The notes beneath the pieces are model-generated. The model ran no database searches and was not told the DNA's origin. It saw only the letters and a program-made list of their open reading frames with translations. The position numbers were made by a program, and so were the translations under genes. Shown one piece after another: positions 27,082 to 30,977 of a stretch of 64,000 nt of DNA. Origin of the DNA: Alphaproteobacteria bacterium. GTDB taxonomy: Bacteria > Pseudomonadota > Alphaproteobacteria > Sphingomonadales > Sphingomonadaceae. The stretch covers positions 1,302,001 to 1,366,000 of the forward strand of contig VBAC01000001.1 of assembly GCA_005883305.1 (NCBI GenBank). The letters run 5' to 3'. The first letter of the stretch is position 1, and each line of letters begins with the position of its first letter.

Positions 27082-27212
27082 CGGCAGGCTCCCTCGTCCT
27101 AAGCCGCGATAGTCACCCCGCGCCACCGAGGTCAACCGCGACGGCCAGGCCTTAACCGCCGCGAAAGTGCGTGCCGCTATGGAGGGGCTTTCACCCGACA
27201 GGGGAATGCCCT

Positions 27213-27965
27213 TTGCTCCACGTACCCATCCGGCAGGCGCCCGCGCTCGCCACGCCGTTCCGGATCAATCCCGAGCTCGATCTCGGCGCGATCCGGCGCG
27301 CCTACGATGAAGATGGCCGCGTCCGGATCTACAATCTGCTCGTCGATGGCGCGGCCCAGCTGCACGATCATTTGAGCGATCGGCCGGATTGGATCTACCT
27401 CATCAACAACGGCGCCGACGTCCTCGAGATCGATCCCGCCGAGCGCGCGCGGATCGGCAAGAGGCGCTGGGCCGCGATCGAGGCGGAGGCGCACCTGCGC
27501 GTGCGCGAAGCCTTCCAATATCGCTACCAGGCGCTGCGCGTGCCGACGGCGGAGGAGATGGCTTCCCTGGACGACCCGCTGACCGATTTCGCCCGCTTCA
27601 TGCAGAGCGGCGAAATGCTCGAATTCCTGCGCGCGGCGACCGGCCACGACGCTCTGAGCTTCACCGACGGCCAGGCCACCGCCTATGGCCCCGGCGACTT
27701 CCTCACCGGCCATGACGACGATGTCGAAGGCAAGGACCGGCTGGCCGCCTACGTGTTCGGGCTGACGCCCTATTGGCGGCTCGAATATGGCGGGCTGCTG
27801 CTGTTCCACGGCGAGCACGACCGCACCGCGGCGGGCAACGTGCCGCGCTTCAACACGCTGGATCTGTTCTCGGTGCCGCGCCAGCACAGCGTGTCGATCG
27901 TCACCCCCGCAGCGCCGCATCGCCGAATGGCGGTAACCGGCTGGCTGCGCAGCGGTTCGCGCTAA
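27213..27965 (+). CDS. 2-oxoglutarate/Fe(II)-dependent oxygenase
   Basis: A protein of about 250 aa of the prolyl-4-hydroxylase-like dioxygenase superfamily. The iron ligands are seen as LTGHDDD (His-x-Asp, near residue 170) and a distal histidine near RQHSVSIV/APHRR, with the arginine that binds 2-oxoglutarate. DRLAAYVFGLTPYWRLEYGGLLLFH is characteristic of the family. The start is uncertain: a TTG at 27213 has AGGGGA upstream; a GTG at 27171 would add 14 residues. A short GG-leader peptide gene follows on the same strand after about 150 bases. Confidence 0.85.
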   Translation: MLHVPIRQAPALATPFRINPELDLGAIRRAYDEDGRVRIYNLLVDGAAQLHDHLSDRPDWIYLINNGADVLEIDPAERARIGKRRWAAIEAEAHLRVREAFQYRYQALRVPTAEEMASLDDPLTDFARFMQSGEMLEFLRAATGHDALSFTDGQATAYGPGDFLTGHDDDVEGKDRLAAYVFGLTPYWRLEYGGLLLFHGEHDRTAAGNVPRFNTLDLFSVPRQHSVSIVTPAAPHRRMAVTGWLRSGSR

Positions 27966-28117
27966 CCGATTAACCCGCTGACGCGCTCCTGTCCCCCCTT
28001 GGGACGGGCCGTTTTTCGCTGTTGTCGCAGCGATCTGAGCCTGTCAGGCACCCCATCACACCAGCCGGGGAAGGCTGATGGGACCAGGGGCCACGGCCCG
28101 CCAACAGGAGACATCGA

Positions 28118-28306
28118 ATGCGCGATCTTCACGCTTTTGAGCTTTCGCAGGTCAGCGGCGCCGGCTGCTCGCCCTGCCCGCCGACCACGACCAAGAACAA
28201 CAACGGCTACGGCAACGGCGCCGAGTCCGGCCCGCCCCCGGGCAATTCGGGCGCGCACAATCCCCAGCTGACCACCTCGAATTCGGGGCCGAAGGGTCCC
28301 CGTTAA
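28118..28306 (+). CDS. 62-aa peptide with double-glycine-type leader (bacteriocin/RiPP-like)
   Basis: The peptide begins MRDLHAFELSQVSGAG. The pattern EL-x2-V-S-G-A/G is that of leader peptides cleaved by C39-type exporters. The predicted mature part starts at Gly or Cys (CSPCPP) and is rich in Asn, Gly, Pro and Thr. It includes YGNG and several PP/GP pairs, and has only two cysteines, close together. AGGAG lies seven bases before the ATG and a strong terminator follows, so it is a self-contained small gene. No C39 transporter, immunity gene or maturase is adjacent, other than the 2OG-Fe(II) oxygenase upstream. Confidence 0.6.
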   Translation: MRDLHAFELSQVSGAGCSPCPPTTTKNNNGYGNGAESGPPPGNSGAHNPQLTTSNSGPKGPR

Positions 28307-28325
28307 GGCTCCACGGGCCAAAGTG

Positions 28326-28365
28326 GAGAGCCCCGGGTCCGCTTGGCCCCGGGGCTTTTTGCTGC
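28326..28365. terminator. Rho-independent terminator between convergent genes
   Basis: AGCCCCGGG … CCCCGGGGCT forms a hairpin of about nine pairs around TCCGCTTGG, followed by TTTTT on the plus strand. It ends the peptide gene; the SCP2 gene converges from the other side and may use it in part. Confidence 0.82.
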
Positions 28366-28665
28366 CTAGCCTTTGAGCTTCGCCAGCACGCCCTGGAGCT
28401 GCATGGCGTTGGACATGTCGCCCTCGACCTTGAGCTTGCCCTGCATGAAGGCGGTCATGCCGTCGAGCTTTCCGCTGGCGAGATCCTCCCAATCGCTCCA
28501 GGCGACCTTCAGCGTCGTGTCCGCGTCGCCGTCTTCCTCGGTCACCGCGCTGGCATTGCCGTCGAGCATGACGACGCCCTGATCGCCGAAGTCGAGCTTG
28601 ACGCGCTTGCCGGGGACGAAAGCCTGGGCCTCGTTGAGGCGGGCGGCCATCTCGCTCTTGGTCAT
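28366..28665 (-). CDS. SCP2 sterol-binding-domain protein
   Basis: A 99-aa single-domain SCP2-like lipid carrier. The pattern KRVKLDFGDQGVVMLDG near residue 20, ADTTLKVAWSDWEDLASGKLDGMTAFMQGKLKVEGD and the final helix are typical. Bacterial members bind hydrophobic ligands such as acyl-CoA, with unknown physiological partners. GGAGAG precedes the ATG at 28665, so the longer frame with 10 extra residues is discarded. Confidence 0.92.
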   Translation of the reverse strand: MTKSEMAARLNEAQAFVPGKRVKLDFGDQGVVMLDGNASAVTEEDGDADTTLKVAWSDWEDLASGKLDGMTAFMQGKLKVEGDMSNAMQLQGVLAKLKG

Positions 28666-28769
28666 GTTCTCTGCTCTCCGTTGGACGATCGCCACTCCCT
28701 GACTTTCGCCGCCGCGCCCGTCAAGCCGCCTCCTTCCCTCCCCGCTTCAAGCCCGCTAGTCGGGCGGGC

Positions 28770-30977
28770 ATGGACGCCGCCGAAGCCATCCACGAAAAGT
28801 TCGTCGCCAGGCTGAGCAGCGGACGGCTGCCGCGGCGGATGAGCGACATCCAGCCGGACGAGGTCGGCCTGTCGCGCGAGGCGATGGTCGAGCTGTTCTA
28901 CAGTCAGGTCGCGAGCCGCCAGATGGATCGCCTCTCGCGCCGGCTGCAGGCGCGGGGCGAGGGCTTCTACACGATCGGCAGTTCGGGCCACGAAAACAAC
29001 GCGGCGGTCGCCGAGGCGCTTCGCCTGGGCGACATCGCCTTCCTCCACTACCGCTCCAATGCCTTCCAGCTCCACCGCTCCAAGCAACTTCCGGGGCAGA
29101 CGCCCTGCTGGGACATGCTGCTGTCCTTCGCCGCCTCGGCCGAGGACCCGATCTCCGGCGGCCGGCACAAGGTGATCGGCTCCAGGCCGCTCAACATCCC
29201 GCCACAGACGAGCACCATCGCCTCGCATTTGCCGAAGGCGGTGGGCGCGGCGTTCAGCATCGGCATCGCCCGAACCCTGAAGCTCGACGACGCTCCCCTT
29301 GCCCGCGATTCGATCGTGCTCGCCAGCTTCGGCGACGCCTCGGCCAACCATTCGACGGCACAGGGCGCGTTCAACACGGCCGCCTGGGCCGCCTATCAGG
29401 GCACGCCGATGCCGCTCGTCTTCCTCTGCGAGGATAATGGCATCGGCATCTCGACCCGCACGCCGCGCGGTTGGATCGCGGCCTCGTTTCAGGACCGCGA
29501 GGCGCTCAAATACATCCACTGCACCGGTCTCGACATGGTGGACGCCTGGCGCGGCGCTCGGGAAGCGACGCGCTATGCGCGGACCGAGCGGAAGCCCGTC
29601 TTCCTGCACATGGATTGCGTGCGGCTCTACGGCCATGCCGGATCCGACATGCAGAGCGCCTACCTGTCCAAGGCGCAGATCGAGGCCGACGAAGAGCGCG
29701 ATCCGCTCGTCTACAGCGCCGCTTTGCTGGTCGAGCAGGGCATCCTCTCGGAAGCCGACATCCTGGAAATCTATAACGAAACCGAGACCACGCTGGCCCG
29801 GATCGGCGAGCAGGCGATCACGCGCCCGAAGCTGACCAGCAGCAAGGCGGTGATGGAAAGCCTGATCCCGCCGAAGCGGGATCTGCCGGCGGCGAACACG
29901 CCCTCGCCCGAAGACCGCCAGGCGCTGTTCGCGCGCGACTTGGGGATGATGGACAAGCCGCAGCACATGGCGCGGCTGCTGTCCTGGGCGCTGGCCGATC
30001 TCATGCTCGCGCACAGGAACGTTATCGTCGCCGGCGAGGATGTCGGGCCCAAGGGCGGAGTCTACAACGTGACCGCCAAGCTGCACGAGCGCTTCGGCCC
30101 GGCGCGGGTGATCAACACCCTGCTCGACGAGCAGAGCATCCTCGGCCTCGGCATCGGCGCGGCGCATAACGGCCTTCTGCCGATCGTCGAGATCCAGTTC
30201 CTCGCCTATGTCCACAATGCCGAGGATCAGCTGCGCGGCGAGGCGGCGACTCTCAGCTTCTTCTCCAGCGGCCAGTACACCAACCCGATGATCGTCCGCA
30301 TCGCCGGGCTAGGCTACCAGAAGGGCTTCGGCGGCCATTTCCACAACGACAACAGCCTCGCCGTCTTCCGCGACATCCCGGGGCTGATCCTCGCCTGCCC
30401 CAGCAACGGCGCCGACGCCGTCGAGATGCTTCGCGAGTGCGCGCGACTCGCGCTCGAGGATCAGCGCGTGATCGTCTTTTTGGAGCCGATCGCGCTCTAC
30501 ATGACCCGCGACCTGCACGAAGAAGGCGACGGCCTGTGGACCGCGCCTTATGCCGCGCCCGGCGAGGCCAAGCCGGTCCGGTTCGGCGATCTCGGAGTCC
30601 ATGGCACCGGCACCGACCTCGCCATCGTCACCTACGGCAACGGCTATTACCTTTCCCGCCAGGCGGAGAAGATCCTCGCCGAGCAGCACAAGCTGAAGCT
30701 TCGGGTCATCGACCTGCGCTGGCTGGCGCCGCTGAACGAGGACGGCCTGATCGAGGCGACGGAGGGCTGCGAGCGCGTGCTGATCGTCGACGAATGCCGG
30801 AGGACCGGCTCGCAGAGCGAGGCGCTGATGGCCCTGTTCGCCGAGCGCGCGCCCGGAACTCCCTGCGCCCGGATCACCGCCGAGGACAGCTTCATCCCGC
30901 TCGGCCGCGCGGCGACCCTGACCCTGCCGAGCCGCGATTCGATCGTCGCCGCGGCGCTGGAGCTGGTCCGTGGCTGA
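28770..30977 (+). CDS. Fused alpha/beta 2-oxoacid dehydrogenase E1
   Basis: A 735-aa thiamine-diphosphate enzyme joining the usual E1 alpha and beta chains in one polypeptide. The N-terminal half has YTIGSSGHENNAAVAEAL and the ThDP/Mg motif GDASANHSTAQGAFN…DNGIGIS (residues about 190-230). The C-terminal half begins near residue 400 (ALADLMLAHRNVIVAGEDVG) and carries the transketolase-like pyrimidine and C-terminal domains. No E2 or E3 gene is nearby. Instead its last eight bases overlap a FabD-like gene, suggesting the acyl product is handed to a dedicated transferase. The substrate is probably a branched or unusual 2-oxoacid (inference). Confidence 0.87.
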   Translation: MDAAEAIHEKFVARLSSGRLPRRMSDIQPDEVGLSREAMVELFYSQVASRQMDRLSRRLQARGEGFYTIGSSGHENNAAVAEALRLGDIAFLHYRSNAFQLHRSKQLPGQTPCWDMLLSFAASAEDPISGGRHKVIGSRPLNIPPQTSTIASHLPKAVGAAFSIGIARTLKLDDAPLARDSIVLASFGDASANHSTAQGAFNTAAWAAYQGTPMPLVFLCEDNGIGISTRTPRGWIAASFQDREALKYIHCTGLDMVDAWRGAREATRYARTERKPVFLHMDCVRLYGHAGSDMQSAYLSKAQIEADEERDPLVYSAALLVEQGILSEADILEIYNETETTLARIGEQAITRPKLTSSKAVMESLIPPKRDLPAANTPSPEDRQALFARDLGMMDKPQHMARLLSWALADLMLAHRNVIVAGEDVGPKGGVYNVTAKLHERFGPARVINTLLDEQSILGLGIGAAHNGLLPIVEIQFLAYVHNAEDQLRGEAATLSFFSSGQYTNPMIVRIAGLGYQKGFGGHFHNDNSLAVFRDIPGLILACPSNGADAVEMLRECARLALEDQRVIVFLEPIALYMTRDLHEEGDGLWTAPYAAPGEAKPVRFGDLGVHGTGTDLAIVTYGNGYYLSRQAEKILAEQHKLKLRVIDLRWLAPLNEDGLIEATEGCERVLIVDECRRTGSQSEALMALFAERAPGTPCARITAEDSFIPLGRAATLTLPSRDSIVAAALELVRG

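Follow-up and report, generated by a model that had tools for sequence, protein, structure and literature searches.

It is rather likely, in our view, that the short peptide gene described here supplies a dedicated peptide type I secretion system with a standalone substrate, exported in trans and probably hydroxylated at an SPxPP motif. The gene lies in a stretch of 64,000 nucleotides, the whole of which we call the window, at C1:1302001-1366000 of a Sphingomonadaceae genome of 3.03 Mb. A first-pass annotation had noted, at 27213-28306, a leader-bearing peptide reading frame behind an oxygenase gene; these coordinates comprise the oxygenase gene together with the peptide gene, and the observation is confirmed.

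Is the peptide gene real?

The answer is yes: the 62-residue reading frame of the precursor P0001 (28118..28306, forward strand) is a real gene and not a chance frame. A ribosome-binding site, AGGAG (28106..28110, forward strand), lies 7 nucleotides ahead of its ATG, and the gene is followed by an intrinsic terminator (28322..28363, forward strand), a hairpin (GCCCCGGG/CCCGGGGC) with a T-run that folds at -31.7 kcal/mol (z -4.98; 0 of 200 shuffles were equally good), so that the good ribosome site and the terminator of its own with which the peptide had been credited have both held up. A terminator scan of the window misses this hairpin and lists a site at 27988-28008, after the oxygenase gene, instead. 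We see no sign of a riboswitch, because Rfam gives sub-threshold matches only on 27100-28800 and the stretch 28030-28170 folds no better than shuffles (z -0.81).

What refutes the idea of a chance or decaying reading frame is above all conservation. A syntenic orthologue in G684 keeps the same gene order, with scoB, scoA, the oxygenase (74%) and the peptide followed by SCP2-like, E1-like and FabD-like genes, and the conserved core from K26 to R62 (KNNNGYGNGAESGPPPGNSG...GPR; 28193..28303, forward strand) is under purifying selection, the differences among five window-like cores being mostly synonymous (pooled pN 0.038, pS 0.269). A chance frame would fit the lack of any family match, since neither P0001 nor the other members of the peptide system gave a Pfam, NCBIfam or PADLOC match when scanned, and it would fit the absence of P0001 from most genomes; yet with orthologues, selection, leader pattern, ribosome-binding site and terminator all in place, it is vanishingly improbable.

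The 32 precursors that we collected, drawn from 17 genomes or plasmids, fall into three kinds. The A peptides are Lys/Ser/Gly- or Arg/Ser/Asn-rich and, in the cases read, have the companion gene behind them; the B peptides, which are the window type, are represented by 12 sequences, each of which has NNG[YF]GNG, PGxS and an Arg at its C terminus, and all keep the core consensus KxNNG[YF]GNG…PGxSG…R; a few others make up kind C. The window peptide itself reads YGNGAES, and we do not regard its YGNG as the pediocin box, YGNGVxC, because no V or C follows, and none of the 32 tallied peptides has V and C at that place. A profile built from 12 family peptides finds matches in 11 of the 26 genomes of the genus (all matches with a locus were read, as were three without one from fetched stretches, and the duplicate locus copies L096/L105 and L098/L107 were counted once; G687, G690, G691 and G693 are 68-87% complete). 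A weak match in G693 (C13; L106/L142) held no clear leader peptide and was dropped. When P0001 alone was searched against 298 genomes of the family, 16 genomes responded at E <= 0.01, of which G218 and G281 are the only real ones beyond the query, the other 13 looking like chance frames. The first-pass annotation had made its proposal hang on conservation of the peptide and of its leader in relatives: there are orthologues and 12 window-type sequences, the five window-like cores show pN well below pS, and the leader pattern is present in every one of the 32.

Some members of the family deserve separate mention. G688 holds a 91-residue peptide with the same leader and a core that is mostly serine (L146:3812-4087), the G281 cluster (L043:11872-18452) adjoins radC-like and conjugation-like reading frames, and in G218 two tandem leader peptides (L041:8390-10127) adjoin an integrase-like one, these neighbours being named by eye.

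How would the peptide leave the cell?

The leader, MRDLHAFELSQVSGA (28118..28162, forward strand), reads MRDLxxxELxxVxGA|G (M-R-D-L-x3-E-L-x2-V-x-G-A-G), and its positions L-12, E-8, L-7, V-4, G-2 and A-1 fit the double-glycine consensus read by C39 exporters; cleavage would be expected after Ala15. A double-glycine-type leader had been proposed from the first, and the broader form L-12, E-8, L/W-7, V-4, G-2, A/G-1 is indeed found, with MR.L...E...V.G[AG] running through all 32 peptides. At the DNA level the pattern stands above its control, with 2 matches in the 3.03-Mb genome against 0 in the reversed control, and 9 matches in 5 of the 298 family genomes against 1 in the control; those in G005 and G177 look like chance frames on reading, and that in G038 proved to be a different GG peptide.

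The second match in the own genome is a 55-residue peptide at the C39 exporter locus, 1.2 Mb from the window, and this is the only C39 peptidase/exporter that the genome holds. Domain searches place there an OMF gene (C1:119009-120406, reverse strand), an MFP gene (C1:120557-121789, forward) and the C39-ABC gene (C1:121828-123936, forward); convergent with the last is the gene of a 319-residue companion protein (C1:123908-124867, reverse), and beyond it lies the exporter-linked A peptide, which has the same leader as P0001 (C1:124974-125141, reverse). Because the sole C39 locus bears a peptide with the same leader, we read its exporter as serving P0001 in trans. This is just what the first-pass annotation, seeing no exporter next to the peptide, had predicted and proposed to look for in the genome, and the catalytic motifs are intact: all 7 exporters that we read keep the Cys, His and Asp motifs of C39. 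Scored against the NHLP bacteriocin export model TIGR03796, the own-genome exporter reaches 476.8 bits, below the cut-off of 853.3. An exporter is physically linked to the same peptide family in the own genome, in G685, where a window-type peptide directly adjoins the OMF, MFP and C39 genes, and in Blastomonas, whose plasmid pBSY18_3 has the order peptide A, companion, 2OG oxygenase, peptide B, C39, MFP, OMF.

The surroundings of these and other C39 exporters are worth recording in their own right. Beside the own C39 locus (L002:13222-19981, or C1:125222-131981) stand a second ABC exporter without a C39 domain, glycosyltransferase genes and another HlyD-type adaptor, and the region resembles a surface-polysaccharide locus. 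In two plasmid versions without the oxygenase, those of Rhodobacter sp. CZR27 and Paracoccus liaowanqingii (L085:11487-13594, L086:11311-13567), the C39 operon is extended by genes for a histidine-kinase-like protein and a response regulator, which hints at signalling linked to the peptide, and in Methylobacterium nodulans pMNOD02 a FemA/FemB-type gene comes after the C39 operon (L088:11778-12809). The same family also contains a separate double-glycine system, in G038, where a different GG-leader peptide of 84 residues (GGYGGGG...; L044:3680-3934) precedes another C39 exporter by ~2.3 kb.

Is the oxygenase a partner of the peptide?

The gene ahead of the peptide (P0002; 27213..27965, forward strand) encodes 250 residues from a TTG, with a GTG at 27171 as a possible alternative start. 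Both PF13661 (6.1e-19) and PF13640 (1.2e-12) match over cut-off, and the nearest solved proteins by profile are OGFOD1 (1.8e-14) and TPA1 (1.7e-9), followed by PHD-type prolyl hydroxylases, in keeping with the prolyl-hydroxylase-like 2OG-Fe(II) oxygenase described upstream on the same strand in the first pass. The likeness extends to the HxD...H iron ligands and Arg, found in 6 of 6 members of the peptide-linked clade discussed below, and we infer that proline would be the substrate. OGFOD1 and TPA1 act on a ribosomal protein and the PHD enzymes on HIF, and the window enzyme differs from all of these in being a single short domain that is genetically tied to exported peptides.

How tight is that tie? 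Homologues of the oxygenase occur in 90 of the 298 family genomes, mostly without peptides. Some of the family's oxygenases are identical, over the stretch compared, to those of Polymorphobacter records, which marks the family as sphingomonad-like. A leader peptide lies within ~1.5 kb at 3 of the best 30 family loci (own, G281, G218) and at 2 of 19 further loci in the genus (G684, G687), ~1.5 kb having been scanned on each side of the 27 and 17 peptide-free loci, and all 5 peptide-adjoining enzymes belong to a single clade: with that of Blastomonas, the six peptide-linked oxygenases group together at 100/100 against 26 others, as own, G281 and G218 had in a first tree (100/99). The oxygenase precedes a B peptide on the same strand, at 152, 154, 170 and 164 bp, in the window, G684, G687 and Blastomonas respectively; elsewhere its reading frame overlaps the end of another gene, which is the companion gene behind peptide A in G281 and the C39 gene in G218. 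The four B peptides just named are also the only window-type peptides that adjoin the oxygenase, 8 of the 12 lying away from it, and G680, G688 and G689 (97-100% complete) have a window-type peptide, still Pro-rich (CPPPPPPPC, YTPPPPC), and no oxygenase homologue at 1e-10. The comparisons thus argue for a link that is real but optional. The pairing suggested in the first pass survives as a genuine association, on the strength of G684 synteny and the clade, and fails as a necessity, just as the spacing that it proposed to compare is 152-170 bp in four genomes and has no counterpart in those three.

Two further oxygenases should be mentioned. One, on an S. parapaucimobilis plasmid (47.6%), has clpB and TonB receptors as neighbours and no annotated peptide, and we set it aside. 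The other is in G687, where a convergent reading frame flanks the window-type peptide opposite the clade oxygenase (L144:3972-4820); by eye it resembles a JmjC/cupin-type 2OG oxygenase (HFDPEHN) and is possibly a second modifying enzyme.

The proposed site of hydroxylation is S-P-C-P-P, residues 18-22 (28169..28183, forward strand), which starts at the third residue past the predicted cut. The hypothesis arose from the first seven genomes, in which S-P-x-P-P came soon after the leader in own, G281, G218 and Blastomonas and in none of three plasmids without the oxygenase (for their hosts we relied on ~15 kb of annotation and a search confined to the plasmids). Ten more were then added to the tally, which now stands at 6 of 6 genomes with a clade oxygenase against 0 of 11 without (Fisher 8e-5, uncorrected for kinship). 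Of the 13 peptides in the oxygenase genomes, 6 are without SPxPP, and Pro-rich heads other than SPxPP occur where the oxygenase is missing. We think that the SPxPP prolines are probably hydroxylated by the linked oxygenase. As for the suggestion that this is a RiPP, the defining pair of leader precursor and linked tailoring enzyme is found, the latter as a clade-specific and optional oxygenase, and P0001 is by that token a putative member of the class.

The peptide might instead pass through the C39 exporter unmodified, with the oxygenase a co-travelling neighbour that has another job, for example as a ribosomal or elongation-factor prolyl hydroxylase. Such a job would suit an enzyme whose closest solved proteins, OGFOD1 and TPA1, have a ribosomal protein as substrate, and it would explain why the oxygenase family is mostly peptide-free and why G680, G688 and G689 manage without it. 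It does not explain why one clade alone is peptide-linked across several unrelated contexts (the scoAB locus, the G687 contig, the Blastomonas plasmid and the exporter loci of G281 and G218), nor the SPxPP association, nor why G687 keeps two more oxygenases of the wider family elsewhere in its genome. We regard the unmodified peptide as unlikely, if worth bearing in mind, and continue to favour hydroxylation.

What else belongs to the system?

The companion protein, of 319 residues, is encoded directly after the Lys/Ser-rich peptide gene and has no Pfam or NCBIfam match. Of the 26 genus genomes it is present in 8, every one of which is also among the 11 peptide carriers (p 1.1e-4); beyond the genus we found it in 3 of 298 family genomes and 4 of 72,556 plasmid records, among 385 class genomes in the own genome only, and in viral contigs there was no relative. 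A structure predicted from 3 sequences scored poorly (pLDDT 43.1) and was discarded, and one from 10 sequences reached pLDDT 72.8. For the latter, Foldseek ranks ParB, Noc, sulfiredoxin and the serine kinases SerK/SbnI highest, a weak match at a best E of 0.014, and the best VIA Z is 7.4 (rmsd 2.5-2.7, 97-98 aligned), scores that may mean a shared arrangement only; VIA rows under the ParB/Srx group, which are small heat-shock proteins at Z under 3.4, were ignored. The companion is accordingly predicted, from the model, to be ParB/sulfiredoxin-like in fold, and in this it resembles the ParB/sulfiredoxin/SerK-SbnI proteins (PMC12704722), from which it is set apart by the weakness of the match and by its place right behind a Lys/Ser-rich peptide gene. 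It bears an NG[YH]HR motif, and one may speculate that it is a peptide-serine kinase.

Upstream of A, B and C genes alike there is a palindrome, GTCCC-N5-GGGAC; the window's copy is at 27991..28005 (no strand assigned), its distance to the peptide ATG being 127 bp. The motif was recognised post hoc. Counted at its spacing of 5, it occurs in 14 of 32 regions at <=1 mismatch and in 22 of 32 at <=2, whereas other gaps from 1 to 10 give at most 3 and 6 regions, and 200 dinucleotide shuffles at <=1 mismatch average 0.295 regions and never exceed 2. Distances to the ATG run from 94 to 138 bp (for G685 we took the aligned site at 105, not an equal-scoring one at 186), and the own A gene has a 2-mismatch version only. 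Since the terminator-like site 27988-28008 after the oxygenase coincides with this shared element, it may be an operator, and we read the palindrome so because the A/T tract that follows many copies consists of A's in some genes and of T's in others; it may also act as a terminator. A sigma-54 reading was rejected, there being no clear -24/-12 box by eye, and our literature search on the palindrome found no paper. The palindrome alone does not define a regulon, since the own genome has 4 exact sites against 7 in the reversed control, with no enrichment.

What might the peptide do outside the cell?

Put together, the proposed route starts from what the sequence of P0001 offers, a C39-type double-glycine leader whose pattern recurs in the exporter-linked peptide. 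The adjacent OGFOD1/TPA1-like oxygenase would hydroxylate one or more SPxPP prolines; the sole C39 ABC transporter, with its HlyD-type and TolC-type partners, would cut the leader after GA and export a product of ~47 residues, with a Cys/Pro-rich head and the conserved Asn/Gly/Pro core; and this B peptide would act outside the cell with the Lys/Ser-rich A peptide of the exporter locus. Killing, adhesion or matrix formation, and signalling all have precedents as the extracellular role, and a matrix or signal function is as conceivable as that of a bacteriocin; either would fit within the export scheme that we favour.

A class II microcin-like bacteriocin, perhaps as half of a two-peptide pair with the A peptide, is possible, though somewhat on the unlikely side. 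A double-glycine leader with C39, MFP and OMF is the layout of microcin V, the A precursors carry a net charge of +7 to +14, and the system looks mobile, with relatives on plasmids or near conjugation-like genes. With class II microcins and other C39 (PCAT) peptides, such as microcin V and its CvaAB-TolC, our system shares the leader pattern, the C39 ABC transporter, the HlyD-type adaptor and a TolC-like factor, and it departs from microcin V in its scattered substrate genes exported in trans, its conserved Asn/Gly/Pro core, its linked 2OG oxygenase and ParB/Srx-like companion, and the lack of a recognised immunity gene. The microcin precedent is covered by PMC10231218. There is an alphaproteobacterial one too, the contact-dependent CdzC/CdzD of Caulobacter, likewise a two-peptide system with a type I exporter; according to PMC5380434 the Cdz peptides are likely unmodified and need CdzI, a small immunity protein with three TM segments, whereas here modification looks likely and no CdzI-like gene was recognised. 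Indeed, neither the window's reading frames nor, by eye, the neighbours of eight peptide loci yielded a recognisable immunity gene, the window-type precursors carry a net charge of just 0 to +6, their core is unusually constant for a toxin, and PADLOC, Pfam and NCBIfam are silent on them.

A role in matrix, adhesion or biofilm, or in signalling, for a peptide exported by C39 like EbfG1-4 of Synechococcus is a quite realistic prospect, while still falling short of probable. There several GG-motif peptides share one C39 exporter, PteB, and EbfG1-4 are required for biofilm, as PMC4997328 reports. Low-complexity repeat cores with Cys would suit such a role, as would the glycosyltransferase genes that adjoin the exporter locus and the exact palindrome, one of four, that precedes a Wza-like polysaccharide-export reading frame (named by eye) by 142 bp; against it, palindrome sites are few and unenriched genome-wide.

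What does it mean for the field?

Our boldest extrapolation, which we consider a long shot, would have two precursor types under one leader, a near-neutral prolyl-hydroxylated B and a Lys/Ser-repeat A phosphorylated by the companion, co-regulated through GTCCC-N5-GGGAC and exported in trans by one C39 pump to form hydroxyproline-containing surface or signalling material outside, and this would make it a Gram-negative secreted peptide system of a new class. Among the open-access matches listed, with subscription journals mostly outside that scope, no title or abstract describes the system. What we can offer is a conserved peptide family, defined in 11 of 26 genomes of one genus, and a prolyl-hydroxylase-type oxygenase tied to exported double-glycine peptides, with SPxPP as the predicted site of modification. 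For the ParB/sulfiredoxin fold there may be a new role here, and the system would be a case of hydroxyproline in a bacterial secreted peptide and of a trans-acting C39 exporter with scattered substrates.
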